From Synergistaceae bacterium (lineage in GTDB: Bacteria > Synergistota > Synergistia > Synergistales > Synergistaceae): a DNA stretch of 64,000 nucleotides. Made by a program: the position numbers and the translations under genes. The notes under the pieces were generated by a model. It made no database searches. It was given only the letters and a program-made list of their open reading frames with translations, and was not told the origin of the DNA. Every line of letters starts with the position of its first letter. Position 1 is the first letter of the stretch. The stretch lies in assembly GCA_021372895.1 (NCBI GenBank), contig JAJFTP010000007.1, forward strand, positions 1 through 64,000, given 5' to 3'. Below, piece by piece: positions 33,998 to 49,485 of the stretch.

Positions 33998-35344
33998 GTG
34001 AAATATATGCTCCCATTTACGAATAAAACTTTTTCTATAAATATCCAAGGCTGCCGCACTAACCAGTATGAGGGTGAGGCAATTGCAGCCGCTCTCGAGA
34101 AGGCAGGGGCTGTCCATAACGATGTCAGCCCGGATATCGCCGTTATAATGACTTGTACTATAACAGCCGCAGCGGACAGAAAGTGCCGTAAGCTGATAAG
34201 AAAACTGCGCAGGGAGAACCCGGCCGCGGTGATCGTAGTATGCGGCTGTTATGCGCAGAAAATCTCCGGCGCGGAGCGCGAACTGCTCGACATAGACATC
34301 GTCATCGGCAACAGGATGAAGCATAAACTCCCTGAACTGCTGTCCCAATGGTATGCGAATGAAGGGATCAAAAAAGACATCTCGCTGTTTGACGACAATA
34401 TACTTGCTGAAAGCTCATGGGATGGACTGATGCTTGATCACCCGCGCATGCACAGGCGTGCCTTTCTCAAGGTACAGGACGGATGCAACCATTACTGCAG
34501 CTATTGCATAGTACCATACGTCCGCGGCAATCCTGTATCACGGGACATGGATAAAGCCGTAGCCGAAGCACGGGGTATCATCGATTCGGGCTGTAAAGAA
34601 ATTGTCCTTACCGGGATCCATTTAGGTCTTTATAAGGACCTGGGCACACTTGTCAGGCGCATAGGAAACATAGACGGACTCAAGCGTCTGCGCTTTGGTT
34701 CCATAGAGCCGTTTGCTGTCGATGATGCACTGCTTGATGCGCTTGCAGAGACAGAAACTTTCTGCCCACACCTGCATCTGCCGCTGCAGTGCGGCGATGA
34801 TGGCGTGCTTGCAGCCATGAGGCGGGGCTATACGGTCCGCGCTTTCAGAAAGATAACGGAAGATATAAGACGCAGGCTGGGCGATAAGATCCATTTAAGC
34901 ACGGACCTCATGGTAGGTTTCCCTGCGGAAGGCGATGCTGCGTTTGACAACAGCATGAAATTTATAGAGGAAATCGGTTTTGGCAAGGTGCATGTATTCC
35001 CATATTCGCCTCGCGAGGGAACGGATGCGGCTGCCATGGAACGCCAACCTGAAAAGGAAGTGCAGGAACGTGTCCATAGGGCACTTGCATTAGCAGATAA
35101 GCTCCACAAAAAATACTGCTCCGAATGGATAGGCGAAAAAGTATCAGTCCTCGTTGAAGAAAAGAAAAACGGAACGATCCGCGGCCTCACACCCAACTAT
35201 GTGCGTATTGTCGCAGAAGACAATGGAGCCAGGCTCTCTGAAGAGGTCATGGTCACACCGCAAAGATATGCGAATGGCATCCTGCTTGCCGGAAACATTC
35301 CCGACCCTCTGCATGACGAGGAAGAGTTCCCCGAAATTTTATAG
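33998..35344 (+). CDS. mtaB: tRNA t6A37 methylthiotransferase MtaB
   Basis: Radical SAM enzyme converting t6A37 to ms2t6A37 in tRNAs that read ANN codons. The protein (448 residues) has the N-terminal MTTase domain with three Cys positions (GCRTNQYE, TCTITAAAD, CGCYAQ), the radical SAM motif CNHYCSYC near residue 165, and a C-terminal TRAM domain. The GCRTNQ form and TAAADRK favour MtaB over MiaB or RimO. The start may be GTG 33998 or ATG 34007. In the ancestral order, rpsU-yqeY would follow; here 14 kb of other genes intervene. Confidence 0.92.
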   Translation: MKYMLPFTNKTFSINIQGCRTNQYEGEAIAAALEKAGAVHNDVSPDIAVIMTCTITAAADRKCRKLIRKLRRENPAAVIVVCGCYAQKISGAERELLDIDIVIGNRMKHKLPELLSQWYANEGIKKDISLFDDNILAESSWDGLMLDHPRMHRRAFLKVQDGCNHYCSYCIVPYVRGNPVSRDMDKAVAEARGIIDSGCKEIVLTGIHLGLYKDLGTLVRRIGNIDGLKRLRFGSIEPFAVDDALLDALAETETFCPHLHLPLQCGDDGVLAAMRRGYTVRAFRKITEDIRRRLGDKIHLSTDLMVGFPAEGDAAFDNSMKFIEEIGFGKVHVFPYSPREGTDAAAMERQPEKEVQERVHRALALADKLHKKYCSEWIGEKVSVLVEEKKNGTIRGLTPNYVRIVAEDNGARLSEEVMVTPQRYANGILLAGNIPDPLHDEEEFPEIL

Positions 35345-35495
35345 AAGGCCCATCTTTTTGATAAAACATTTGATAAAACAATAAAAAATCTCAGTTTCCC
35401 CTTTCAGTTGAGGTATGCTACAGTAAATATGTTTGTTATAGCAGTCGCCCGGTGAATCATGCAGTAATATGTCCATATAATGGCAGGTGAATTGA

Positions 35496-38465
35496 ATGAA
35501 GTACAAGGCCCGTTTTCTTGGAAACCCTGAATTTTTTGTAGATGGTCAGCCGCTGGCCTTTGCGTTTCAGAAGGCACGGATCCTCACGCTCATGCTCATT
35601 GAGGAAAAGAGCATATCCAGAGATAAGATATGTGAGTACTTGTGGGCGGACAAACCTATAGAAAAAGGGCGCAGAAATCTCAGCAACGCTCTTAGTTATA
35701 TAAGGACCATAATACCTGTCCATGCGGGAAGCGCCGGCATGATTTCGCTGGATCATGCATTCAGGATAGAAAAAGATATCGACCGCCTATGTCATATAGA
35801 TACTATGGACTGGAACGATATCTCTGATTTGTGTTTGCCTTTTATGGATCTGGCTGAGCTTGATGAATGGCCTTCTTTCAGCGACTGGCTCCTCCCTAAA
35901 AGGCAGTACTACCATAACGTAGCTGTAGAAAATCTTAAAAGGCGGGCAGCGAAAAAACTTATATCACCATCGGAGGAAGGCTATGACGATGCTGTGCTCT
36001 GCTATGAAAAGCTGGCTGAATACGAACCTTATGATGAAAAGATACATGGCGAACTTGTAAGGTTATACATAAAAACAGGACAGAAAGTTAAGGCTGTTGA
36101 CACTGCCCGCGCATACTCCATGCGTATTGAGAATGATCTTGGGATAAGTACAGATCTGTCCGATATTTCATCTTTGATGAAAAGGAAGACGCCCGGCAGC
36201 AATCCATTGTCGATGAATCGTACTTTTGATGATATTCCACTGGCCAGAAATGCCGAAATGCTCAAGATGCTGGATTTTTTATCAAGGACTGGTGCTGAAT
36301 CCTGTTCTTCCTGCGGGCTTGTCTGGGGAGAACAGGGAATAGGAAAGACTGTTTTTATAGATGAAATAGCGTCTTGTCTGAAAGAAAAGGGCTGGGAGTG
36401 TTATTTTGTCAGGTGCTCTCAAGAAGAAAAAAATCGTCCTATGGTTCCATTTATACAGCTTCTGCAGAGGCTCAAATATACACCTTCGCAGTTGGAAAAC
36501 ATCACATCTCTCACAGAACTCAATTATTCGCGCCTTGCAGAGCTGGTCTATCAGCAGATTGCCGAAGTCTCTGCCGGTCGGAGTAAAATACTGATTATCG
36601 AAAATATCCAATGGATGGACGAAGCATCATGGATGATTCTTGAAACTATCATGTGGGATCATTCCGCACCGAGACATCTCCTTATTTCCGGATTTGAAAA
36701 TATCCGTTCCGCATTTATGATACGGACCACTCTTGCTGATGAGCCTTTTGAAGAATTTGAAGTGAGACTTAAGCGATTCAACCTTGAAGAGACAGGCCAG
36801 ATTTGCCGCGGGATCAGGCCCGATCGTCAATGGTCGGATGAACTTATTCACGAAGTATACATGCAGACAGAAGGGAATCCTTTTTTTATCAAAGAGCTGC
36901 TGACGTCTAATGAAGGAACAGAAGACCAAGGAGTAACTTTATATAAAAATCCGTTTTTGTCGGTTGTCGAACGGCTTGATAAGGACGAAAGGCTCTTCAT
37001 GGAGGCCATGGCAGTGTCTTCTGAACCCGCTTCAATGCTGTATGTTGCCAAACTGATTGATATGTCTCCGCTGCAGATTTCAAATATCTATGAAAACATT
37101 AAAGTCTATGAATTACTTCGTGAAAAAAATGAAGAAGGGGATGTGTTATATTACTTTACACATGTAAAAATACGTGAGATCCTCTTGAAAAATATGTCTT
37201 TTTCAAGAAAACAGGCACTTCACTTAAAAAATATCATGATTTTGGAGGAGTCGGCTTTGCCGCTTTTATACAGGCATAGGAATATTTATAAAAGACTTTA
37301 TTATCATTGTCATGATGCCGGGCTCAATGAGAAAGAGCTCTTATGGCGTGTCAGGGAATTGAAGCTGCATTTCATGGCCGCACATGAAGTTTTTCCGACA
37401 CTCATTGATCAGGACCTTATGTACTATATCCCCTCATTAGACGATGTAGACTATACCAATCGGTCTCTTGCGTCAGCATGGGAACTTATGAATAAAATTT
37501 CCCGCTCCGGAGGAAGAAGCCATGATCTTGACAGAATAGAGAGAGATCTTTATATACTGCAGGGAGCTTATCATTGGTGGGCTGGGCAGTATGAAGATTC
37601 AAGACAGATGCTCACAGAGGGTCTGCGCAAGGCACTTAAAATCGGGGAGCAGGAAGCTGCCATCGAAGCAGTTGTGCAGATGTGCTATCTTGCAATACAG
37701 ACTGATAATGCACAATTTCTTCATTCCTGTGCATCTAAAGTATATAGGATCTCCCAAAAAGAACACCTGCACCAATGGCTTGGAATTTCTCTGCGCTTTT
37801 TGGCTATAGCCAAAATCCTAGAAGGTAAGCATTCAGAAGCCGAAAGGCTTTTACAGATGTCCACCCTTGTTTTTGAAAAGCTCGAAGAAGAGGGAAGCAG
37901 CTACACGGTATGTCTTATAGCCGCCGAGCACTTCAGGGGAGATATGAAACTGGCCTCGGGGGATATTGAAGGTGCTCTTTCTTTTTACATGAGCTGCATC
38001 AACATCGGAGAGTCTATCGGACTTTACCGTGGACTTGGGCTCTCTCTTGCAAAATCAGCATTTTGCCTTATGCTTCTTGGAAATTTTGAAGAGGCAGAAA
38101 AATACCTTCTTCGGATGGAGAAATTTTATAACCTCATACACTCAGACCTGGACGGTGGTCTACAGGGTTCAGGTATCGCACTTGGACTCATGGGGTTGAT
38201 CAACTCAAGGAAAGGAGACTGGGAAAAGGCCAGGATCTATTTTACGTTGGCTCAAAAGCTGGTAGCAAAAACAAGGCGTCCGACATGGCAGGCTGTGCTA
38301 TGTTGGTCTAAACTGGAGTTATTCAGGCTTTCCTTGCAGATCCCTGAGGATTTTGCAAAGGACGTGCTCAATAAAGAGCCTGAATGGTATTTGAATCAAT
38401 TGGAGCAAATGAAGCATAAAGTGGGATGGGTCAACATCGCGGAGCCGGCTAGTCCTGTTACATGA
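35496..38465 (+). CDS. BTAD/AAA-type large transcriptional regulator
   Basis: 989-residue regulator. The N-terminal ~95 residues look like an OmpR/SARP-type winged helix, followed by a bacterial transcriptional activation domain (about 100-225: SDWLLPKRQYYHNVAVENLKR, YEPYDEKIHGELVRLYIKTG, ENDLGI). Next comes an AAA-type ATPase with Walker A GEQGIGKT at 278-285 and Walker B LIIENIQWMDEA. The C-terminal ~450 residues are helical with TPR-like repeats, as in MalT/SARP-type STAND regulators. It lies directly upstream of the methyltransferase genes and is separated from them by a terminator. Control of that cluster is inferred from position only. Confidence 0.8.
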   Translation: MKYKARFLGNPEFFVDGQPLAFAFQKARILTLMLIEEKSISRDKICEYLWADKPIEKGRRNLSNALSYIRTIIPVHAGSAGMISLDHAFRIEKDIDRLCHIDTMDWNDISDLCLPFMDLAELDEWPSFSDWLLPKRQYYHNVAVENLKRRAAKKLISPSEEGYDDAVLCYEKLAEYEPYDEKIHGELVRLYIKTGQKVKAVDTARAYSMRIENDLGISTDLSDISSLMKRKTPGSNPLSMNRTFDDIPLARNAEMLKMLDFLSRTGAESCSSCGLVWGEQGIGKTVFIDEIASCLKEKGWECYFVRCSQEEKNRPMVPFIQLLQRLKYTPSQLENITSLTELNYSRLAELVYQQIAEVSAGRSKILIIENIQWMDEASWMILETIMWDHSAPRHLLISGFENIRSAFMIRTTLADEPFEEFEVRLKRFNLEETGQICRGIRPDRQWSDELIHEVYMQTEGNPFFIKELLTSNEGTEDQGVTLYKNPFLSVVERLDKDERLFMEAMAVSSEPASMLYVAKLIDMSPLQISNIYENIKVYELLREKNEEGDVLYYFTHVKIREILLKNMSFSRKQALHLKNIMILEESALPLLYRHRNIYKRLYYHCHDAGLNEKELLWRVRELKLHFMAAHEVFPTLIDQDLMYYIPSLDDVDYTNRSLASAWELMNKISRSGGRSHDLDRIERDLYILQGAYHWWAGQYEDSRQMLTEGLRKALKIGEQEAAIEAVVQMCYLAIQTDNAQFLHSCASKVYRISQKEHLHQWLGISLRFLAIAKILEGKHSEAERLLQMSTLVFEKLEEEGSSYTVCLIAAEHFRGDMKLASGDIEGALSFYMSCINIGESIGLYRGLGLSLAKSAFCLMLLGNFEEAEKYLLRMEKFYNLIHSDLDGGLQGSGIALGLMGLINSRKGDWEKARIYFTLAQKLVAKTRRPTWQAVLCWSKLELFRLSLQIPEDFAKDVLNKEPEWYLNQLEQMKHKVGWVNIAEPASPVT

Positions 38466-38549
38466 TCTTTATTTTGCGGTAATTGCAATGTAACTTAGGC
38501 TGATTTTTTGAAAAAGTGTCAAAGAAATGCAAAAAAAATATCTATCTAT

Positions 38550-38592
38550 AACCCCTTTCGGACAATGAGGCCGGATGGGGTTTCTTTTTTTT
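38550..38592 (+). terminator. Rho-independent terminator after the BTAD regulator
   Basis: AACCCC (38550-38555) and GGGGTT (38577-38582) form the outer stem, extended by an inner TTCGG/CCGGA stem; a T-rich tail (TCTTTTTTTT) follows. It separates the regulator transcript from the corrinoid protein gene. Confidence 0.85.
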
Positions 38593-38627
38593 GCATAGTT
38601 TTTATAGCCGGATGATATCCTTTGCAC

Positions 38628-38651
38628 GTTGAACATAAATATTTTTTCAAC
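38628..38651. promoter_or_regulatory. Inverted repeat GTTGAA-N12-TTCAAC upstream of the methyltransferase operon
   Basis: Six-base perfect arms spaced 12 nt apart, centred about 50 nt upstream of the corrinoid protein start and downstream of the terminator. It is a candidate binding site for a cluster regulator. I cannot place a convincing -35/-10 pair around it. Confidence 0.35.
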
Positions 38652-38688
38652 ATTAAGGTTTTAATTAAATTAAACGGAGGTTGTAGAT

Positions 38689-39318
38689 ATGTCGATCGAA
38701 CAGGTTCGTCAGTACATGGTTGACGGTGAGGGTGAAGCGGCCGTAGAGATCGTGAAGGATCTCATCTCAAAAGGTACGCCGGCTAAGGATATTATGAGCG
38801 GTCTTACGGATGAAATGGCTATCCTCGGACAGAAGTTTGAGAACTTCGAAGTATTCCTCCCAGACCTTATGGTTGCAGGTGATGCGTTTATGACGATCAT
38901 GGAGGTTCTTAAGGTACACCTTATAGCGGCTGTTGGGGACAAGATACCACACACAGTTGTTATCGGTACGGTAAAGGGCGACTATCACGATATAGGCAAG
39001 AACATAGTAGGAATTGTCCTGCAGGCAAACGGTTTTCATGTAGTTGACCTTGGTTCTGACGTAGACCCGGTTGCCTATATAGATGCGGCGCGCAGGGAAA
39101 AGGCCGATGCGGTAGGCCTGTCAGCTCTTATGACCACTACAATGCCGGGACAGGAAGAGTTTATAAAGATGGTTGCCGATGCCGGTGACAAGGGTAAATA
39201 TCTCATCTGTGTGGGCGGCGCACCCACGTCTGTTGAGTGGGCAGAGCGCATAGGCGCAGATGTCTGGTCATTCGATGCATTTGAGTACGCGGCTAAGCTC
39301 AAAAAGCTTCTTGGTTAA
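38689..39318 (+). CDS. Methylamine-type methyltransferase corrinoid protein
   Basis: 209-residue cobalamin carrier of the MtmC/MtbC/MttC type. An N-terminal helical cap (about 1-85) precedes a Rossmann B12 domain with DYHDIG at 98-103 (DxHxxG, His100 as lower axial cobalt ligand), GSDV near 118 and GGAPTS near 185. It accepts a methyl group from the substrate methyltransferase and hands it to the second methyltransferase. ATG follows ACGGAGG. The gene begins an operon with the MtmB-like enzyme 25 nt downstream, the natural partner. Confidence 0.92.
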   Translation: MSIEQVRQYMVDGEGEAAVEIVKDLISKGTPAKDIMSGLTDEMAILGQKFENFEVFLPDLMVAGDAFMTIMEVLKVHLIAAVGDKIPHTVVIGTVKGDYHDIGKNIVGIVLQANGFHVVDLGSDVDPVAYIDAARREKADAVGLSALMTTTMPGQEEFIKMVADAGDKGKYLICVGGAPTSVEWAERIGADVWSFDAFEYAAKLKKLLG

Positions 39319-39343
39319 TAAGGAATCAGAGGAGGAATAGATC

Positions 39344-40735
39344 ATGTCTACATTTAGGATGTGGGAAGTTTTTGCGAAGGCAGATAACGGGCCCTTCTAC
39401 AGAGACCAGTCGGAGTGGATGATAAAGAGCTTCATCCCCAATATGAAGAGAGTTGTTAAGGAATATAACGTTAAATATGACGGCAAAACGATTGTCAACT
39501 GCGACGACGATTTGGCTGATAGGGTATGGGCTGCTGCAAAAGATTTCTTCATCTCCGTTGGTGTATATAATCAGGATTCACACAGGGTCATGAAGTTCAG
39601 CGAACAGGAAGTCAACGAAATACTCTACACAAAACAGCCCAAATATATGATCGGAGCAGGGCACGACCAGCGCTGGCTTCAGGTCCGTTCAATAGAAGAT
39701 AAAGAGCGCCGTCCCTTCCACCTTTTCAGCCCGGATGCAAACTTCAGCACCGATATCCATAAGAAGGCATGCATGGCTTATCTGAAAGAGCCCCTTCTTG
39801 ACGGACTTTGCGCTCCTTTGATCGAAGATTTTATGGGACGCAAGGCGACATCGCAGAGTCCGACTGAAGTTGCAGCGGCAATGGAACATGCGATGAACCT
39901 ACGCGATGCTCAGCGTCTTGTCGGTAAGCCGGACGTATGGACTGTATCAGTAGGTACGGCAGAAACAGACCAGGCACAGATTGCAGCAGCAAATCCTGAA
40001 TGGGGAGTCCGCCCGTCACACCTTGATGGCCGTATGGTATCCATTCTCACAGAAATGACCACCAACAACTCGATGCTCAATAAGGCCCTGCACTACCGCT
40101 CATACGGCAACGTTTTCGGGAACCTCTGCGGAGCCATATTCGGCGGCCATGCCGGCGGCACGGAAGGCACTGCGATTCTCCAGACAGCTTACAATATCGA
40201 AGGGGCATGTCTCTACGGCTCAGCCTGGGCATTGAACTTCCCGTTCCATCTTAAGTGGCAGTCAACAACTACGAGAGAACTTCTATGGCTCCAAAGCGTT
40301 CTCAGCCAGGCAATGGCACGTAACTCAAATCAGATATTCCTCAACAACCTTTTTGCAAACGCAGGTCCTGCGACGGATCAACTCTATTGGGAGTGCGCGA
40401 ACCATGCCCTTGCAACTGAATCTTCGGGCGGCAACCCATGGGGTGCTGCAACATGCCGCAATAAATTTACAGACAGGGCAACCCCGCTCGAATCCCGCTT
40501 CTATCATGAAGTTTCCGAATCTTCTTTCAAGATGCGCATTACCCGTGCCCAGGCAAACGAAATCTGCCAGAAGATCATGGAAAAATACGAGAAACTTATT
40601 CCGATCGACAACTATGGAAAGACGATTCAGGAAGTTTACGACATGGAACGTCTCGTCCCTCATCAGGAGTACCTTGATCAGTACAGACGCATGAAGGACG
40701 AACTCTCTGCTATGGGAGTAGATTTCGTCTACTAA
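39344..40735 (+). CDS. MtmB-family methyltransferase lacking pyrrolysine
   Basis: 463-residue protein that I align (from memory) along its length with archaeal monomethylamine methyltransferase MtmB (458 residues). Matching blocks include the SP.EV.AA..E stretch before residue 180, GNVFGNLCGAIFGGHAGGTEGTAI with the MtmB IFGGYAGG core, SAWALN..HLKW.STTTRE and AGPATD. At the position of the MtmB pyrrolysine (UAG, residue 202) this gene has Trp199 (TGG at 39938-39940); there is no in-frame TAG. It should still methylate the neighbouring corrinoid protein, but from a different substrate, as MtgB does among non-pyrrolysine MttB homologues. GGAGG precedes the ATG. Confidence 0.82.
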   Translation: MSTFRMWEVFAKADNGPFYRDQSEWMIKSFIPNMKRVVKEYNVKYDGKTIVNCDDDLADRVWAAAKDFFISVGVYNQDSHRVMKFSEQEVNEILYTKQPKYMIGAGHDQRWLQVRSIEDKERRPFHLFSPDANFSTDIHKKACMAYLKEPLLDGLCAPLIEDFMGRKATSQSPTEVAAAMEHAMNLRDAQRLVGKPDVWTVSVGTAETDQAQIAAANPEWGVRPSHLDGRMVSILTEMTTNNSMLNKALHYRSYGNVFGNLCGAIFGGHAGGTEGTAILQTAYNIEGACLYGSAWALNFPFHLKWQSTTTRELLWLQSVLSQAMARNSNQIFLNNLFANAGPATDQLYWECANHALATESSGGNPWGAATCRNKFTDRATPLESRFYHEVSESSFKMRITRAQANEICQKIMEKYEKLIPIDNYGKTIQEVYDMERLVPHQEYLDQYRRMKDELSAMGVDFVY

Positions 40736-40755
40736 TAAGACAGCATCGTTTTCAG

Positions 40756-40793
40756 TTTGCAAAGAGGCACATTATTGTCTGTCTCTTTGCAAA
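40756..40793 (+). other. Perfect 11-bp hairpin after the MtmB-like gene
   Basis: TTTGCAAAGAG (40756-40766) pairs perfectly with CTCTTTGCAAA (40783-40793), with a 16-nt loop. Without a T-run it probably protects the 3' end of the corrinoid/MtmB-like message or attenuates transcription into the next gene. Confidence 0.55.
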
Positions 40794-40842
40794 ACCTATG
40801 TTAAGGATACAGTCCATGCAATTTATATAACGAGGTGAGGAA

Positions 40843-42216
40843 ATGACAGGCAAAGAAAGGGTACTTAAGGCGCTGCGTTTTCAGGAAGTAGACCGCGTTC
40901 CATGGGTTCCTTTTACCGGAGTCCATGTCGCCAGACTCATAGGAAGCGATGCAGAAAAGCTTCTTAAGGAAGGCGATGTGCTGGTAGAAGCTGTCACTGC
41001 TGCTGCAGAGCGCTACTGTGCCGACGGAGTCTGTTCTGCATTCGACCTTCAAGCTGAAGCGGAGGTCCTGGGATGTGACCTGCATTGGTCTAAGAATAAT
41101 CCTCCTGCAGTTACAGGCCACGTGCTTGCACAGGGAAAAACATTGGAGGATCTGCCCGAATTCACGAAGGACAAGGGACGCCTTCCTATGTTCTTTGATG
41201 CAACCCGTAGGCTGGTTGAAAAAATAGGAGATAAAACTGCGGTGTTTGCCCTCTGCTGCGGACCGTTTACCCTTGCTCTCCATCTTCGCGGCTCAGATTT
41301 CATAATGGATATGATCAAGAAGCCTGAAGAGGCCCATAAGGTACTGGCGTTCTGCTCCGAGGTTACGCGTAAGATGGGTGAGTGGTATATGGAAACAGGA
41401 GCTCATGTTGTGGCTGTTGTCGACCCTATGACAAGCCAGATAGCCCCGAAACATTTTGAAGCGTTTGTAACTCCCTATGTAAAACCTGTAATTGATGAAG
41501 TGCACGTAAAGGGCGGTATCGTCACGTTGTTCTGCTGCGGCAACGCCACCAAGAACATAGAGCTTATGATGCAGAGCAAGCCCGATGCGATCGCTTTTGA
41601 CGAGCAGGTAGATTTAGCTTTTGTCAGAGAACTTGCAGAAAAATATAAGGTCTGCTTCGAGGGGAATATCCCGCTTACAACCACACTGCTTTTCGGCTCC
41701 CCACGCGAATGCGTAGCCGACGTTAAAAAGAGAATAGAGATCGGCGGTACTGCAGGATACATCCTTTCCCCGGGCTGTGACCTGCCATATGATACTCCGT
41801 TCTACAACCTTGAGGCTGTTGGTAAATATGTTGCTATAGGTGAAGAACCCTCCGAGACATCTGGTTTCCTATCCCTTGAAGAAGCCCTTGCTCAGGCAGA
41901 GGACTCCGGTGATATTTTAGAGGATGTGAAAATAGAGCCGGGAAAGGTGTTCATAGAGATCGTTACTCTGGACTCAGAGGGTTGTGCTCCATGCCAGTAT
42001 ATGTGTGAAGCAGTGAAAAATGTGGCTCCTCTCTATGGTGAAAAGTTAGAGTGGCGGGAATCCCTCATAAAGAGTGCTGCCGGCATCAAGCGCACCATGG
42101 CTTTGGGCGTTTCAACCCTGCCTACGATGCTCATCAACAATGAAGTCGTCTACGACAATATAATCCCAACAGCAGACGATCTTATGAAACAGATTGACAA
42201 GAGGTTGAAAGGATAG
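40843..42216 (+). CDS. MtaA/CmuA-type methyltransferase fused to a thioredoxin-like domain
   Basis: 457 residues. Residues 1-335 are a uroporphyrinogen-decarboxylase-fold methyltransferase of the MtaA/MtbA/CmuA family, which transfers methyl groups between a corrinoid and a thiol through zinc. The zinc motif HxC of MtaA is here FCC (F230, C231, C232), so the His ligand is missing while the third Cys in SPGCDLPYDTP (C312) is kept. Residues about 368-457 resemble a thioredoxin domain with CAPC at 381-384 and STLPTM (cis-Pro) near 427. The acceptor is unknown; bacteria of this kind normally lack coenzyme M. It follows the MtmB-like gene after 107 nt. Confidence 0.82.
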   Translation: MTGKERVLKALRFQEVDRVPWVPFTGVHVARLIGSDAEKLLKEGDVLVEAVTAAAERYCADGVCSAFDLQAEAEVLGCDLHWSKNNPPAVTGHVLAQGKTLEDLPEFTKDKGRLPMFFDATRRLVEKIGDKTAVFALCCGPFTLALHLRGSDFIMDMIKKPEEAHKVLAFCSEVTRKMGEWYMETGAHVVAVVDPMTSQIAPKHFEAFVTPYVKPVIDEVHVKGGIVTLFCCGNATKNIELMMQSKPDAIAFDEQVDLAFVRELAEKYKVCFEGNIPLTTTLLFGSPRECVADVKKRIEIGGTAGYILSPGCDLPYDTPFYNLEAVGKYVAIGEEPSETSGFLSLEEALAQAEDSGDILEDVKIEPGKVFIEIVTLDSEGCAPCQYMCEAVKNVAPLYGEKLEWRESLIKSAAGIKRTMALGVSTLPTMLINNEVVYDNIIPTADDLMKQIDKRLKG

Positions 42217-42231
42217 TTGATTATTTCAGTA

Positions 42232-42282
42232 ATATTTTCATGTTCCGGTGCAGATGAAACTTGCACCGGAACATGAAAATAT
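42232..42282. terminator. Perfect 21-bp hairpin after the fused methyltransferase gene
   Basis: Arms 42232-42252 and 42262-42282 are perfectly complementary, with a 9-nt loop. The outer part is A/T-rich, so both strands show a T-rich end (TGAAAATAT after the loop). It may act as a terminator or a strong stabiliser between the methyltransferase genes and the NhaC gene. Confidence 0.6.
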
Positions 42283-42336
42283 AGTTATATAAGACATACT
42301 TGCTGAAATTATATTCAAGAATAGGGGGAAACATCA

Positions 42337-43890
42337 ATGGAAAACAAAAATGTGAAAAAACCCAGCGTTACATTGGCTTTTGTAACATTTGTAGGTATAG
42401 CCGGAATTATCGGTTATGGTCTGCTTGGTCTTGGTCTAGACGCTCATGTCCCAATAGCGATAGCAACAATTTTTGCCGCATTGGTTGGTTTTTTCGCTAT
42501 AGGAATTAAATGGGAGGATATGGAAGTTGCCATTTGCAGCGCTATTAACTCTTCTATAAGCGCATTGCTTATACTGATAGCGATTGGCATGTTGATAGGT
42601 TCGTGGGTGCAGGCTGGAGTTGTTCCGGGAATGATTTATTATGGGTTTGATCTTCTTTCCCCAGGAATCTTCCTCTTAGCCACTCTCCTGATATGTTCTG
42701 TAGTTTCTCTCGCAACAGGTACATCATGGGGTGTTGGGGGTACAGTTGGAGTTGCATTGATCGGTATTTCAATCGGACTTGGAATCCCTGCCCCTCTGAC
42801 GGCAGGAGTAATCATTTCCGGAGCATATCTCGGAGACAAGATGTCTCCACTCTCCGACACAACAAATTTAGCACCTGCGGTTTCCGGATCGAACCTTTTT
42901 GACCACATACGTGCAATGATGTGGACGACGGGACCTACATATATCATCGTTATAATAATTACGATCGTGCTTGGGTTCGGATATGCAGCAGGAGATGCTA
43001 GCTCCATGTTTGATACAAGCCGGATAAAAGCTTTCCAGGCTATCATCGGAGCCGAATTTGACATTAATCCTATTTACACGATTGTCCCTCCTCTTATCGT
43101 TATTGTTCTTGCTGCTATGAAATGCCCAGCTCTCCCAAGTATGATGGCTGGGACAGCAGCAGGATCGGTTTTTGCTATATTCCAGGGCAAGACACTGGCA
43201 GAGGCACTAACAGCCATTCACTACGGGTATACTTCTTCGGTAGCTGCAAAGATTTCGGAAACAGCGGTTGAAGGGATTCCTGCACTTTTGACTAAATTTG
43301 GCATATCCGGTGTGACACCTGATATAGCGCATGAAGTCGGATCGCTTGTTGTTGAGCTTCTTAACAGAGGTGGACTTGATAGTATGATGTGGTCGCTGTC
43401 TCTGATTATGATCGCTCTCTGTCTCGGAGGTGTCATGGAAAGCTGTCACTATCTTGATGTCCTTCTTAATCCACTTCTATACAAAGTCCGTAGAGTCGGT
43501 GATTTTATTACTCTCGTAGAGGCATCCTGTTTGGTAAGCAATATATTCTTAGGGGACCAATATCTTGCAATTATTGTCCCTGGACGCATGTTCAAAATGG
43601 CAGTAGAAAAGTCGGATCTTTCTCCAAGGATGCTTTCCCGTGCTTTGGAAGATTGCGGAACGCTGACTTCACCCCTGGTTCCATGGACAGGATGCGGCGC
43701 ATTCCAGTCCGCAGCGCTTGGAGTTCCCACACTGGAATATCTTCCGTACTGCTTCTTTAATTACCTTAACCCGCTTGTTGCAATATTTATTTCCTATTTG
43801 GGGATCGGGATTTATTGGGGTAGAAATAAAGATGACAAAGTTGAAAAGCGCACTGCACTTGACTTTAGTTTCCTCAAAAATGAAGCATAA
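42337..43890 (+). CDS. NhaC-family Na+/H+ antiporter-type carrier
   Basis: Integral membrane protein of 517 residues with about 11-12 hydrophobic segments. NhaC-type features include GTSWGVGGTVGVALIGI and ISGAYLGDKMSPLSDTTNLAPA, with the conserved Asp/Ser/Thr-rich loop. Family members exchange Na+ for H+ or for organic acids (such as the malate/lactate carrier MleN). Placed among methyltransferase genes, it could import the substrate or export the product instead of balancing ions. Its DNA is visibly more AT-rich than the flanking liv and chaperone genes. An AGGGGG sequence precedes the ATG. Confidence 0.85.
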   Translation: MENKNVKKPSVTLAFVTFVGIAGIIGYGLLGLGLDAHVPIAIATIFAALVGFFAIGIKWEDMEVAICSAINSSISALLILIAIGMLIGSWVQAGVVPGMIYYGFDLLSPGIFLLATLLICSVVSLATGTSWGVGGTVGVALIGISIGLGIPAPLTAGVIISGAYLGDKMSPLSDTTNLAPAVSGSNLFDHIRAMMWTTGPTYIIVIIITIVLGFGYAAGDASSMFDTSRIKAFQAIIGAEFDINPIYTIVPPLIVIVLAAMKCPALPSMMAGTAAGSVFAIFQGKTLAEALTAIHYGYTSSVAAKISETAVEGIPALLTKFGISGVTPDIAHEVGSLVVELLNRGGLDSMMWSLSLIMIALCLGGVMESCHYLDVLLNPLLYKVRRVGDFITLVEASCLVSNIFLGDQYLAIIVPGRMFKMAVEKSDLSPRMLSRALEDCGTLTSPLVPWTGCGAFQSAALGVPTLEYLPYCFFNYLNPLVAIFISYLGIGIYWGRNKDDKVEKRTALDFSFLKNEA

Positions 43891-43971
43891 TATTGTAATC
43901 AGGGATATCTGTCTTGTAACAACAATTTATGACATATCAAAGATGTTGCCGTAATTAATATAAAGCATGTA

Positions 43972-44013
43972 GGCAGAGTCTTATTATTTTAAAGATTCTG
44001 CCTTAAGGTTTTT
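43972..44013 (+). terminator. Terminator after the NhaC-family gene
   Basis: GGCAGAGTC (43972-43980) and GATTCTGCC (43994-44002) form a 9-bp stem with one G-T pair, followed by TTAAGGTTTTT. It separates the NhaC gene from the aminotransferase transcript. Confidence 0.6.
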
Positions 44014-44060
44014 ATATATGTTTATGTATTGTTAATATTTATTTAATTATATAGTAAAAA

Positions 44061-44069
44061 TGATATAAT
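44061..44069 (+). promoter_or_regulatory. Extended -10 promoter element for the class III aminotransferase operon
   Basis: TGATATAAT in a strongly AT-rich stretch, 46 nt upstream of the TTG start. No good -35 is visible. It suggests that the aminotransferase and corrinoid-activator genes form a second transcription unit. Confidence 0.5.
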
Positions 44070-44114
44070 TATAGTTATTTCTAGTAACAATAAAAAAACG
44101 GAGGTGTGATTCAT

Positions 44115-45467
44115 TTGCAAAGAAATATCTCAAAAAGCATGAAAATTATTGAACGCGATAACAGAGTGATATCGCCATGCTCAAGATCTCCGTACTATCC
44201 TTTTGTTGTAAGTTCTGGAGTCGGTGCTTTATTGAAAGATGCGGATGAAAATGAATATATAGATTTTTCTGCAGGGGCTGCTTCTCTAAATACAGGGACA
44301 TGTCATCCATGTGTAGTTGAAGCGATCCGTAACCAAGCCGACAAGTTGCTGTGCTATACTATCGGCTATATGTACGAGGAGTCTTCTGTCCAACTTGCAG
44401 AAAAATTGGTAAGCTTGGCCCCCGGAAAATTTAAAAAGAAAGTTGCTTATGGCTTGTCAGGGTCAGATTCGATCGACGGTGCAATAAAATTTGCCCGTAA
44501 ATATACCGGGCGCAGCGAAATTATTTCTTTTCAGACGGCATATCATGGCTGTACTTACGGCGCACTTTCTGCTTCAGCTATTTGCCTTAATATGAGAAGA
44601 GGCATAGGTCCGATGCTTCCAGGGTTTCACCATTTCCCATATCCGGAATGCGATTGTTGCAGGTGGCATGAGACAATAGAATCATGTAACCTCAATTGTC
44701 TGGAAGAAATAAAGAAGGCTTTTAGGTTTTATCTGCCTTCTGAAGAAGTTGCCGCTGTTATTTTTGAACCCATTGGCGGAGACATTGGTATTGTGGTCCC
44801 GCCTATCAAATATGTCAAAGCTCTTGCCCAGCTTTGTTGGGAAAACGGTATCCTTTTTGTATCTGATGAAGTACAGCAAGGAATGGGACGTACTGGAAAA
44901 TGGTTTGGAATAGAGCATTTTGATGTTCAACCGGATATTATAGCTGTATCTAAATCTCTTGCTTCTGGAATGCCTCTAAGCGCACTTATAATGAGGGCTG
45001 AAATTGCAGATTGTCTTATGGATCCAGGGCATTGCTTCACATTGGCAGCAAATGCTGTTTGTTGTCGTGCCGCACTTGCCACAATACATATTATTGAAAA
45101 TGAAAAACTTATTCGCCGCAGCAAAGATCTTGGAGAGAAAATAACCGATAAAATTTCAAAAATGAAAGAAAACATCCCTATTCTGGGGAACACAAGAGGG
45201 CTTGGACTTACGATAGGGCAAGAGATAGTTCATTCTGATGGTTTGCCGGATAGAAATGCATGTGCAAAGATTTGTTATCGTTGCTGGGAGAGAGGGCTCA
45301 TTCTTACATTTCTTGGGGATAACGTACTGCGGATACAACCGCCTCTAGTTATTACAGAAGGGCAGGTGGAAGAGGGACTTAATATTCTTGCTGCATCATT
45401 AAATGACTACAGAGAGGGCCGTATCGGAGATGAAGTACTCGCTTTTGCCAGAGGATGGTCCTATTAA
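44115..45467 (+). CDS. Class III (omega-amino acid type) PLP aminotransferase
   Basis: Fold-type I aminotransferase of 450 residues, in the group containing 4-aminobutyrate, ornithine and diamine transaminases. Motifs: GLSGSDSIDGAIKFARKYTGR (phosphate-binding), FQTAYHGCTYGALS, the LFVSDEVQQGMGRTGKWFG block with the PLP-binding Asp, and AVSKSLASGMPLSA with the Schiff-base lysine near residue 283. I prefer TTG 44115, 8 nt after GGAGGTG, to GTG 44106, which overlaps that site. In this cluster it may deaminate the primary amine freed by demethylation. It is AT-rich relative to core genes. Confidence 0.87.
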   Translation: MQRNISKSMKIIERDNRVISPCSRSPYYPFVVSSGVGALLKDADENEYIDFSAGAASLNTGTCHPCVVEAIRNQADKLLCYTIGYMYEESSVQLAEKLVSLAPGKFKKKVAYGLSGSDSIDGAIKFARKYTGRSEIISFQTAYHGCTYGALSASAICLNMRRGIGPMLPGFHHFPYPECDCCRWHETIESCNLNCLEEIKKAFRFYLPSEEVAAVIFEPIGGDIGIVVPPIKYVKALAQLCWENGILFVSDEVQQGMGRTGKWFGIEHFDVQPDIIAVSKSLASGMPLSALIMRAEIADCLMDPGHCFTLAANAVCCRAALATIHIIENEKLIRRSKDLGEKITDKISKMKENIPILGNTRGLGLTIGQEIVHSDGLPDRNACAKICYRCWERGLILTFLGDNVLRIQPPLVITEGQVEEGLNILAASLNDYREGRIGDEVLAFARGWSY

Positions 45468-45470
45468 TTA

Positions 45471-47090
45471 ATGGAAGACATTAATTGTGTAATCACATTT
45501 TTGCCGGCTAGAGTAAAAATTTCTGCACATAAAGGCGAATATCTGTCTGACGCAGCTTTCCGTGCCGGTGTGAAAATAGACCGCCACTGCGGCGGTGTCG
45601 GTGTGTGCGGTAAATGTCGTGTAAGTGTTCTGAAAGGCGGTAAATTTCTCAAACCTTTGACAGATACTGAAAGAAAAGTTCTTTCAGATGCTGATATCGC
45701 CAATGGCATACGCCTTGCCTGCTGCGCAGCTGTTATCGGCAGCGGAGAAGTCTATGTACTGGACGGGGTCGAAATGTCCGGAAATCAGATACTTGACAGC
45801 ATTTCAGATAAATTGATCACAATCTGGGCGCCGGATTGTGAAGGATATGGCGTGGCTGTGGATATAGGAACCACTACGGTCGTATGCTATCTTCTTGACC
45901 TTGATGGTCATAAAGAGGTGGACCGTTTTTCTTTTCTTAATCCGCAGGTATCTTTCGGCGATGATGTCATATCCAGAATAGCTTTCTCAAACTCTGTTCC
46001 TGATGGGCTTCAGCGGCTGCAAAAAATTTTAACAGATGAAATGGACAGTGCCTTAAGCGTACTTGCTGAGCGGAACGGAATAAAAAAGGACCAGATAAGA
46101 GAGGTCACCGCAGCCGGCAACACCGTTATGGAGCATCTTTTTTTAGGTGTCTCGCCGGAGAGCATCGGGCACAGTCCCTATATGCCTGGGTTTTTAACGC
46201 ATTCGCCTGTCCCTGCGAAGGAACTGGGACTTAATATATATCAAACTGCTGTCGTTAAATTGCTTCCGAACGTGGCCGGCTATGTAGGAGGTGATATTGT
46301 AGCGGGGGTCGCGGCCCTTGATATGGACAAGGACTCAAGGATAAGGCTCATGGTCGATATCGGCACTAACAATGAGATAGTTATCGGAAACAGCGAGGCT
46401 CTGTTCTGTTGTGCCACTGCGGCCGGCCCTGCCTTTGAAGGAGCCAGAATACAGTATGGCATGAGGGCAAGCACCGGCGCCATAGAAAAAGTCACGCTTA
46501 CAGAGTCTGGGCTTATATGTCAGACAATAGACAACACTGCACCGAAAGGACTTTGCGGGTCCGGCCTCGTTGATGCCGTTGCCTTGCTTCTTGAAACAGA
46601 AATGATGAACAAAAACGGCAGGCTTCAATCTCCAGAGGAGTGCCGCGACGAACGTTTCAGAGAACGTATGGACAGGGATAGAAAAGGAATAATCCGTCTT
46701 CTGCTGACAGATGCGCGGGACCCGGTTTACCTGACGCAAAAGGACATCAGGGAGGTTCAGCTCGCGGTGGGAGCCGTAAAAGTCGGGATAGAGGTAATGG
46801 TTGAGCGTATGGGTATTACTTTGGATGATATTTACGAAGTTTTGCTGGCTGGTGCCTTTGGGAATAATATCGATATAGGCAGTGCGATTACTGTTGGATT
46901 GCTGCCCCGCGTATCACACGGCAAAATCCGAAGTGTATATAATTCTTCAGGTTTAGGAGCCTCTCTCTCACTGGCGTCATCGGAATTTTACGAAGGGACC
47001 AAGACGACAGCGGAAAAGATGTCTTACGTAGAACTTTCATCCCTGGCTGATTTTCAGAAACGTTTTATCCGTGCCATGATATTTTCTTAA
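45471..47090 (+). CDS. Reductive activator of corrinoid proteins ([2Fe-2S] + ASKHA domain, RACo/RamA-like)
   Basis: 539-residue protein expected to use ATP to reduce inactive Co(II) corrinoid back to Co(I). The N-terminal ferredoxin-like domain (about 1-90) holds a [2Fe-2S] motif, CGGVGVCGKC (CX5CX2C) with another Cys in RLACCAA. The rest is the DUF4445 ASKHA region: AVDIGTTTVVCYLLDL, RLMVDIGTNNEIVIGN and VLLAGAFGNNIDIGSA. RamA of methanogens instead carries C-terminal [4Fe-4S] clusters; none are present here, so the architecture is RACo-like. It starts 3 nt after the aminotransferase stop. Confidence 0.88.
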   Translation: MEDINCVITFLPARVKISAHKGEYLSDAAFRAGVKIDRHCGGVGVCGKCRVSVLKGGKFLKPLTDTERKVLSDADIANGIRLACCAAVIGSGEVYVLDGVEMSGNQILDSISDKLITIWAPDCEGYGVAVDIGTTTVVCYLLDLDGHKEVDRFSFLNPQVSFGDDVISRIAFSNSVPDGLQRLQKILTDEMDSALSVLAERNGIKKDQIREVTAAGNTVMEHLFLGVSPESIGHSPYMPGFLTHSPVPAKELGLNIYQTAVVKLLPNVAGYVGGDIVAGVAALDMDKDSRIRLMVDIGTNNEIVIGNSEALFCCATAAGPAFEGARIQYGMRASTGAIEKVTLTESGLICQTIDNTAPKGLCGSGLVDAVALLLETEMMNKNGRLQSPEECRDERFRERMDRDRKGIIRLLLTDARDPVYLTQKDIREVQLAVGAVKVGIEVMVERMGITLDDIYEVLLAGAFGNNIDIGSAITVGLLPRVSHGKIRSVYNSSGLGASLSLASSEFYEGTKTTAEKMSYVELSSLADFQKRFIRAMIFS

Positions 47091-47108
47091 ATAGAAGGAG
47101 GAAGGTAA

Positions 47109-47894
47109 ATGAAGGACATACAGATATTTTTTTCCTCTCTGCACGGAGGCGGATCACAAAATATCACAGCAGTAAAATACGCCCCCATGAATGTTGAGCT
47201 ATCATCGCTTATGGAACATTATGTTCTTCTTGGTGAGAAACACATAAAAAACATTGAAAAATTTATGTCATACTGGAATCTGGAGGGGAAAGAGACTCTT
47301 TTATCTCCTAAAGCACGCCTGGTCATGATGCCTAAAAAAGAGGCCGAAAGAAACTTTGGTTATGACATTATGATGGGCGAAGAATCTGCAGATCATGTTA
47401 TTATGGCTGTCTGGACGCTTGGCGGCGATCTTGAGAAGAAGAGCATGGAGCTTATGTCGGCCAACGGGGATCTAATGATGGGATTTTTGCTTGATGTAGC
47501 AGGTTCAATAGCCCTTTACAATATGCATGACGTTTTAATCGAATGGATCAGGTCAGAGTTGGCCGCGCCGAATAACAAATTCATCACTAAGGAGTTTTAT
47601 CCGGGGCAGAACGATGTTATCCCGGATATGATGGAGAAGATCGAACTTTTGGGCTGCACGGAGAGAACAATAGAAGTGGCAGCCCACGGATCTCCCATGC
47701 TTCACCCCAGGAAGACACAGTGCTCTTTTGTCGGGATCAGTTCAACTCCTCTGGAGATGTCTTTGACCGTCCTTCCATGTTCTCCGTGCAGCGATAAAAA
47801 ATGTTTGTACTACCAGCTTGGAGGGTGCCATATGCAAGTTCTGGCGAATTTCGATAAAGCCAAAGGCAATAAAAATGAGCCACAACAAGTGTAA
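47109..47894 (+). CDS. MetH activation-domain-like protein with a C-terminal cysteine cluster
   Basis: 261-residue protein resembling stand-alone versions of the AdoMet-binding activation domain of B12-dependent methionine synthase, which occur next to corrinoid methyltransferases and their activators. Supporting segments are ITKEFYPGQNDVIPDMMEKIELLG and GSPMLHPRKTQCSFVGISSTP. The C-terminus carries CSPCSDKKCLYYQLGGC (C-x2-C-x4-C-x7-C), suited to binding a metal or Fe-S cluster. AAGGAGGAAGG precedes the ATG. It probably assists corrinoid reactivation with the preceding RACo-like protein. The family match is from memory and moderate. Confidence 0.65.
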   Translation: MKDIQIFFSSLHGGGSQNITAVKYAPMNVELSSLMEHYVLLGEKHIKNIEKFMSYWNLEGKETLLSPKARLVMMPKKEAERNFGYDIMMGEESADHVIMAVWTLGGDLEKKSMELMSANGDLMMGFLLDVAGSIALYNMHDVLIEWIRSELAAPNNKFITKEFYPGQNDVIPDMMEKIELLGCTERTIEVAAHGSPMLHPRKTQCSFVGISSTPLEMSLTVLPCSPCSDKKCLYYQLGGCHMQVLANFDKAKGNKNEPQQV

Positions 47895-48864
47895 AATATT
47901 TTTACTTTCTGGATTTCTGGGTAGCGGTAAAACTACGCTTCTGAAGCATCTTGTCAGCACTGTTCCCGATGCTGAAAAAATAGCTGTGTTGATGAACGAA
48001 TTTGGCAAGGCCGGGGTAGACGGAGATGTCATACGGAAAAATGGCCTTGAAATCATAGAGGTCAGCAGGGGCTCCATCTTTTGTGCCTGTGCCAAAGGAG
48101 ACTTTCTCAGGGCCCTATATACAATATTCCGCGACCACAAACCGACGGTGCTTCTCATAGAAGCAAGCGGAGTAGCGGATACAACCGATATGGAACGCGA
48201 TCTTGGATACGGGATGCTGCATGATTATTATCAGATGGAAGGAAATATTTGTGTAGTTGATGCGCAGCATTTTGAAGAATGGCTTGATCTCTTCAACGCA
48301 GTAATAAAACAGGTCCAAGCCGCATCCCACATCGTCATAAACAAAACAGACCTTGTCTCAGCGGCAGAACTGAAAAAACTGGATGCACACATAAGCGGAA
48401 TAAATCCGGAGGCAAAAATAAGACACGCGGAATACGGCAACATATCATGGGGACTATTTATGTCAAAAGATGCGATGGCGGAAAAAGCTCCTGTGCTTCC
48501 AATGTCCGAGGAATGGGAGAAATATATAGAACAGGCACTCAGCGACAACACAGCACACCTTACTCCTCCAGACAAATTATCCTCGTTGAGTATATTTTGG
48601 GAGGGAAACCCCGAGGTATTTAAAAAATTACTGAATGAACTGCCGGAGGACATCATACGTTCAAAAGGATATTTCAAAGACACAGATCATAAATGGAAAG
48701 TATTTGACATAGTCGGTAATGCAGCTCCGGAATATTCTGAACCTGAGGCCGATTTTGCTCAAAAACGCAACCTTGCAATCTTCATCCGCACGAAGAAGGC
48801 AAGGCGCGAAATACCGGCACTTTTTCAGGATCACGGGCTTAAGTTGCTGGAAGTCAGGTTCTGA
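47875..48864 (+). CDS. CobW/HypB-type GTPase (G3E family)
   Basis: 329-residue P-loop GTPase. It opens with IFLLSGFLGSGKTTLLKHL (Walker A), has EVSRGSIFCACAKGDF, where the CxCC metal motif of COG0523 proteins reads CACA, and has the guanine-specificity motif NKTD. COG0523 members act as metallochaperones or in cobalamin metabolism. ATG 47875 overlaps the end of the previous gene by 20 nt, implying co-translation with the corrinoid-reactivation proteins. A role in delivering metal or corrinoid to the methyltransferase system is inferred from position only. Confidence 0.83.
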   Translation: MSHNKCKIFLLSGFLGSGKTTLLKHLVSTVPDAEKIAVLMNEFGKAGVDGDVIRKNGLEIIEVSRGSIFCACAKGDFLRALYTIFRDHKPTVLLIEASGVADTTDMERDLGYGMLHDYYQMEGNICVVDAQHFEEWLDLFNAVIKQVQAASHIVINKTDLVSAAELKKLDAHISGINPEAKIRHAEYGNISWGLFMSKDAMAEKAPVLPMSEEWEKYIEQALSDNTAHLTPPDKLSSLSIFWEGNPEVFKKLLNELPEDIIRSKGYFKDTDHKWKVFDIVGNAAPEYSEPEADFAQKRNLAIFIRTKKARREIPALFQDHGLKLLEVRF

Positions 48865-48889
48865 TGCTGAAGAGAGTGAGATTATAAGC

Positions 48890-49485
48890 ATGGGAGCCGA
48901 GAATAACGAAGATCAGAGCTTTTGCTCCATATCGGAGAAATGCATTAAATTTTATATGTCGCAGGAAGACGCAACACCAATGGAAATGGCCCTGGCTATA
49001 ATGAAGCTGCAGGATTTTCCAATACATAACTATGCGCATCACTAACTTGTCCCGGCGGTCCTTCTGGCTGCAGTTCACCGTCATCAGGACCGTTCAATTG
49101 ACCTTTATAATAAAGACATGGAAGAAATATGCAGACGAGCTAAGAATGTGCTCCCTGGTTTTTGGGGATTCTGCGGGGCATGCGGTGCTGCAATCGGAGT
49201 AGTTATATTTATGAGCATGATTACCGGGTAATAAGCCGCTAACAAAAGAGACCTGGGCAATGTTGCAACATGGCCACATCTGAAGCGCTTAAAGAAATGG
49301 CGCTTGCAGGCTGGCCGAGATGCCGCAAACGCAACACGTTTATAGCCGTTAAATACGCAATTGCTTTTGTCTCCGATAATCTTTCAATAAACCTTGGATC
49401 TGATGAAAAAGTAAGGTGTGTGTTCAGCCGGTTCAACAAGGAATGCCTGAAAGAGTATTGTTCGTTCTATGATGATGAAGGATGA
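48890..49485 (+). pseudogene. Decayed DUF5714-domain gene
   Basis: Remnant of a ~197-residue DUF5714 protein. From ATG 48890 the frame reads to a TAA at 49043-49045, then continues in the same frame as LVPAVLLAAV and LPGFWGFCGACGAAIG. An extra G at 49226-49228 shifts the frame into NKPLTKETWA, and an extra T at 49263-49264 shifts it again into NMATSEALKEMALAGWPRC. The last Cys pair expected by the family (PRCCKR) reads PRCRKR. One stop, two insertions and a lost Cys indicate a dead gene, or sequencing errors. It begins 25 nt after the CobW gene, at the end of the operon. Confidence 0.78.

Follow-up and report, generated by a model that had tools for sequence, protein, structure and literature searches.

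A pyrrolysine-free MtmB-family methyltransferase of Synergistota with a possible role in the demethylation of an N-methylated amino acid

A 64,000-nucleotide stretch of a Synergistaceae genome (assembly GCA_021372895.1, contig JAJFTP010000007.1, positions 1 to 64,000; hereafter the window) encodes a homologue of MtmB, the textbook example of a pyrrolysine requirement, that itself lacks pyrrolysine. The gene, here called mtxB (39344..40735 on the forward strand, as are the other genes of its island described below), may specify the substrate-specific component of a pyrrolysine-independent three-component corrinoid system that demethylates an N-methylated amino acid, with histidine favored. This is our preferred reading, although a tentative one to which we give slightly less than an even chance. 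From the sequence we read the family, the fold, the operon and the fact that both pyrrolysine and the catalytic-site residues have been lost; we infer all of the reactions, the methyl acceptor and the substrate.

The mtxB open reading frame (ORF) comprises 463 codons, from an ATG at 39344 to a TAA ending at 40735. Its product matched the Pfam MtmB profile (PF05369) over nearly its full length with 266 bits (E=6e-79, gathering score 25; residues 6-458 against positions 3-449 of 450), and phmmer aligned it to the crystallized Methanosarcina barkeri MtmB (PDB 1l2q/1tv2) with E ~2e-50. An AlphaFold2 (AF2) model built from window MtxB and its relatives, with a mean pLDDT (predicted local distance difference test) of 94, adopted the MtmB TIM-barrel fold and superposed on 1tv2, 1l2q and 1nth with template modeling (TM) scores of 0.93-0.95; the next best family, MttB, reached no more than 0.51. 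The preliminary description of the window had placed the gene in the MtmB family, noting equal length and three shared sequence blocks. All three (FGGHAGG, STTTRE and AGPATD) are indeed in MtxB. By profile and model, then, the ORF is a real MtmB-family protein, and mtxB is the sole gene of that family detected in its own genome.

No in-frame TAG occurs in mtxB. Of the 52 longer window ORFs that do not overlap and have a stop, 18 terminate in TAG, among them livH (29766), hrcA (23356) and dnaK (25938), names assigned from sequence by the earlier reader and by us; the description of TAG as an ordinary stop here was thus correct. PylS was not found in the genome, where the best match reached 22 bits, a background value, versus 333-343 bits in two pyrrolysine-using relatives. 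Because TAG serves as a stop this often and the genome is without PylS, the usual code applies. These results bear out the proposal of a bacterial, pyrrolysine-free MtmB homologue that parallels the non-pyrrolysine MttB enzymes. Pyrrolysine-using forms are also found in the same bacterial family: two loci (L002 and L003, in genomes G036 and G015) carry a TAG-bearing MtmB with PylS at most 1 kb downstream, and in G015 the TAG-bearing form coexists with a non-pyrrolysine MtmB (L026).

The residue that replaces pyrrolysine is a different one from that first named. Trp199 (TGG, 39938..39940) had been put at the pyrrolysine site; however, three alignments contradict this and rule it out, placing Val201 (39944..39946) opposite pyrrolysine 202 (Pyl202) and Trp199 two residues earlier, at the equivalent of MtmB residue 200. 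In the phmmer alignment to the crystal sequence, 'GKPDVWTV' was paired with 'GRPGMGVX', in which X is Pyl202. The same register was obtained in a MAFFT alignment with the TAG-bearing MtmBs L002 and L003 and again in a large family alignment. Residues 199-201 lie within a strand of the AF2 model, in agreement with the published anchoring of Pyl202 on a barrel strand (PMC9842639). Since Val or Ile is found at position 202 throughout the sister clade, Val at this position is a feature of the clade.

Four MtmB residues, E229, E259, Q333 and Y335, surround pyrrolysine at the active site. In the large family alignment they correspond to M231, L261, N335 and F337 of window MtxB; across the clade, E229 is replaced by Leu, Ile or Met (mostly Leu), E259 mostly by Leu, Q333 mostly by Asn and Y335 mostly by Phe. 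As aligned, the MtmB acid-base set is gone from window MtxB. Three other replacements, R230, H354 and K374, are conserved across the clade and could bind a carboxylate.

In the tree, window MtxB clusters with 18 other Synergistota sequences at 68-100% identity. Its next relatives, at 44-52% identity in the alignments, come from Bacillota, Actinomycetota, Bipolaricaulota, Spirochaetota, Desulfobacterales and Aminicenantes, and this bacterial clade, with 100% support in the Shimodaira-Hasegawa-like approximate likelihood ratio test (SH-aLRT), is distinct from both the pyrrolysine clade and the probable MtqB proteins discussed below. Wider sampling of about 400 genomes each of Bacillota and Actinomycetota added one further close relative (G585, 61% identical to the Bacillota sequence L091).

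The genes around mtxB encode the partners expected of such an enzyme. Directly upstream lies mtxC (38689..39318), the gene for the cognate corrinoid protein of 209 aa, which has B12-binding and B12-binding_2 domains, matches MtmC and MttC in the PDB and resembles MtbC/MtgC, with scores below the NCBIfam cut-offs. Downstream, mtxA (40843..42216; 457 aa) encodes a UroD-type, MtaA/MtbA-like methyltransferase (URO-D, 215 bits; E 1e-22 against PDB MtaA 4ay7) with a C-terminal thioredoxin-like domain that scored 42.5 bits with the HUIPC model, below its cut-off. A RamA/RACo-type reductive activator of 539 aa (45471..47090), with an N-terminal 2Fe-2S domain and matches to Fer2, Raco_middle and RACo_C_ter, follows. 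With an adjacent corrinoid protein, a second methyltransferase and a reductive activator encoded, the three-component corrinoid methyltransferase module is, as predicted from its gene products, complete. Between mtxA and the activator gene are genes for an NhaC-family transporter (42337..43890; NCBIfam NhaC 418 bits, cut-off 370), which probably carries substrate or product, and a class III aminotransferase family protein (44106..45467; Aminotran_3, 341 bits). The former adjoins mtxB in most Synergistota loci and the latter is kept in many of them.

Gene neighborhoods of the relatives point to amino-acid catabolism. In L091 and in the actinomycetotal locus L086, hutH and hutI stand directly after mtxB, and L086 also has FtcD-like and hutU genes. 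In two Desulfobacterales genomes (G266 and G268), mtxB-mtxC is clustered with hutH and hutU, with genes for a molybdopterin oxidoreductase and for ABC transporters of polar amino acids, and with MttB homologues; the G266 cluster additionally holds hutI and FtcD. The hut-linked relatives thus span three phyla and account for 4 of the 24 non-Synergistota loci. All hutH, hutI and hutU genes examined scored above the NCBIfam cut-offs; an ergothioneine pathway, for which NCBIfam has thiourocanate hydratases, was considered and rejected, the hutU genes scoring as urocanate hydratases. Other members of the clade adjoin genes for a HisC-like aminotransferase, IorAB or an ADP-forming acyl-CoA synthetase, a context seen in six of eight genomes lacking HutH versus 1 of 17 that have it. 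HutH was present in all Synergistota tested, but as it may be common in that phylum we did not count this as evidence. Two Synergistota genomes (G014 and G020) gave 14-15 histidine ammonia-lyase family matches each, fragments included.

The simplest common reading of the hut and HisC-like aminotransferase contexts is that MtxB yields an amino acid, most probably histidine. In the proposed route, the NhaC-family transporter (42337) would import the methylated substrate, MtxB (39344) would transfer its methyl group to the cob(I)amide of MtxC (38689), and MtxA (40843) would hand the methyl group on, probably to tetrahydrofolate, since the genome encodes MTHFR. Corrinoid in the cob(II) state would be re-reduced by the RamA/RACo protein (45471). 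The demethylated amino acid would then be deaminated, in the window by the class III aminotransferase and in relatives by HutH or HisC-like aminotransferases. The likeliest substrate of the clade would be an N-methylated histidine, preferably one methylated on the ring (tau- or pi-methylhistidine): a protonated N-methylimidazolium would already be activated and neutral imidazole would leave, so that no pyrrolysine adduct should be needed. The acceptor of MtxA may be unusual, to judge from its residues. MtxA reads TLFCCGN where MtaA (4ay7) has VLHICGN, so that Phe replaces the His of the presumed zinc site and the residue before the conserved Cys is itself a Cys. The fused thioredoxin-like domain has a CxxC motif.

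A more specific proposal, which we regard as speculative and on the doubtful side, is that a widespread bacterial branch of the MtmB family strips tau- or pi-methylhistidine of its ring N-methyl (or hercynine of a methyl group) and passes histidine to Hut or to HisC/IorAB catabolism. This would constitute an anaerobic route for methylated histidines and the family's second means of doing without pyrrolysine, chemically unlike the first. Methylhistidine is abundant in muscle protein and in dipeptides. The existence of a conserved, pyrrolysine-free MtmB clade that stands apart and neighbors genes of amino-acid catabolism leads to a concrete candidate substrate; if the proposal is true, it would explain the use of methylhistidine or hercynine by sediment anaerobes and Synergistota, and would show which substrates are activated enough to dispense with pyrrolysine.

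Several points weigh against an N-methylated histidine as the substrate. The neighborhood statistics (P ~1e-4 for the hut linkage, assuming a 1% chance per locus; Fisher p 0.001 for the HisC-like, IorAB and acyl-CoA synthetase context in genomes lacking HutH) overstate independence, several of the loci being related by descent and many coming from metagenome-assembled genomes. There are no hut genes in the window's own island, and in genome G000 the hutU-hutH-hutI cluster is on another contig. Because W199, M231 and C262 are peculiar to the Synergistota subclade, at pocket positions where sister sequences have mostly F, L and T, the Synergistota substrate may differ and be, for example, another methylated amino acid. 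The Desulfobacterales neighborhoods, in which MttB homologues adjoin, allow hercynine or a similar betaine as an alternative. Finally, we found no paper on corrinoid-dependent methylhistidine demethylation in the open-licence literature, which is weak evidence of absence. In the large Desulfobacterales clusters (L236, L238 and L239, in G268:C42 and G266:C152), Hut genes are joined by a molybdopterin oxidoreductase, an MtmB homologue and several homologues of MttB; the substrate broken down there may be a histidine carrying more methyl groups, for example hercynine.

That MtxB instead demethylates a quaternary ammonium compound, be it choline, tetramethylammonium or the betaine of an amino acid (hercynine, for example), is possible although we consider it unlikely. 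The sole characterized non-pyrrolysine MtmB, MtqB of Methanococcoides methylutens Q3c, demethylates tetramethylammonium and choline (Kashyap et al., March 2026; PMC13044021), and the non-pyrrolysine MttB enzymes behave alike. MttB homologues of this type stand beside several clade members, and the aromatic, uncharged pocket of MtxB (W199, M231, L261, F337) would suit a cation. MtxB is, however, no orthologue of MtqB. For this comparison we used three Methanococcoides-group loci (L182-L184) as stand-ins, probable orthologues picked because in each a non-pyrrolysine MtmB gene immediately follows one for a corrinoid protein, as reported for mtqBC (PMC13044021); four other non-pyrrolysine MtmBs of Methanosarcinaceae (L118-L121), common to Methanococcoides genomes and located beside undecaprenyl-diphosphate-synthase-like and Cdc6-like genes, were dropped as candidates for want of an adjacent corrinoid gene. 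The stand-ins are only about 28% identical to window MtxB, form a separate clade and read C-M-C at pocket positions 259-261, where MtxB reads L-C-G. MtxB has M231 and C262, which may or may not be the counterparts of the Met and Cys conserved near the ligand in MtqB (logo positions 4 and 5 in PMC13044021). Choline and tetramethylammonium also fit poorly with amino-acid-degrading neighbors; hercynine would still be compatible with the hut link.

That MtxB still acts on monomethylamine or some other simple methylamine, by a mechanism that needs no pyrrolysine, seems very improbable. MtqB does show slight monomethylamine activity in vitro (11 vs 37-42 nmol/min/mg; PMC13044021), but MtxB differs from MtmB at the pyrrolysine position and at each of the four catalytic-site residues, and its relatives lie in an amino-acid catabolic context. 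Hardly more probable is a halomethane or other non-amine methyl donor. A non-pyrrolysine MtmB showed the greatest induction in dichloromethane-grown cells of 'Ca. Formimonas warabiya' (PMC9768040, 2022); around mtxB there is no dehalogenase-type or C1 context, and it is aminotransferase and amino-acid genes that recur. According to PMC13044021, MtmBs without pyrrolysine have long been known. The preliminary statement that none had an assigned substrate held until recently, but has been superseded as a general novelty claim by the publication of the MtqB substrates; for the clade of window MtxB we found no substrate in the papers searched. The new part is the link of the clade to amino acids and histidine; N-methyl amino acid demethylation is not yet described for the MtmB family.

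The module resides on an island (34025..48975) that is sharply bounded. Two blocks, 34025-42295 and 45400-48975, share 95-98% nucleotide identity with G033, a member of another genus in the same family (G033:C10, L188 and L189), versus 69-78% for the orthologous flanks; island GC content is 46% and 42% compared with 50.6% outside. Where the window has its NhaC and aminotransferase genes between the two blocks, G033 has genes for a molybdopterin oxidoreductase, a ferredoxin and a pyridine nucleotide-disulphide oxidoreductase, along with MobA/MobB-like genes and another NhaC. By these comparisons the island is a functional module that has been exchanged horizontally and whose middle part can be swapped. 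Its remaining genes include one for a SARP/BTAD-AAA-TPR protein of 989 aa (35496..38465; BTAD, AAA_16 and TPR), the probable pathway regulator, which is linked to the module in several Synergistota loci. At the other end are a 261-aa protein (47109..47894), which belongs to no known family, is conserved beside RamA in Synergistota and had no hit in Pfam at a threshold as loose as E 1, and a CobW-family GTPase (47818..48864; cobW, 137 bits), for which an ATG at ~47875 is the likelier start. The C-terminal half of the 261-aa protein may resemble the methionine synthase activation domain. The order regulator, MtxC, MtxB, UroD-thioredoxin, NhaC, class III aminotransferase, RamA/RACo, 261-aa protein, CobW recurs in many Synergistota. 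Elsewhere in the family, two Methanosarcinaceae non-pyrrolysine MtmBs (G181:C1:1469862-1471208 and G182:C61:10592-11938) scored 646-658 bits with the MtmB profile, where other non-pyrrolysine forms score much lower (~545 bits or less), and are possibly recent pyrrolysine losses.

Compared with known systems, MtxB shares with M. barkeri MtmB (1l2q, 1nth, 1tv2) its fold, length, family profile, corrinoid partner and UroD-type second methyltransferase, but is only 25-28% identical to it, has Val at the Pyl202 position and has E229, E259, Q333 and Y335 replaced; its genome lacks PylS and its bacterial operon carries NhaC and aminotransferase genes. The Hut pathway, which in its classical form is not known to include a demethylase, is connected through relatives encoded within hut operons, whereas the window island itself is without hut genes. 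Like MtqB of M. methylutens (PMC13044021), MtxB is a non-pyrrolysine MtmB homologue adjoining its own MtbC-like corrinoid protein, yet in identity, clade and pocket residues it differs from the probable MtqB orthologues. The non-pyrrolysine MttB superfamily (MtgB, MtpB, MtcB, MtyB) offers a precedent in kind, a pyrrolysine-free branch of a pyrrolysine family that has taken on new substrates within three-component systems, but it is another sequence family with weak structural likeness to MtxB (2qne, TM 0.46).
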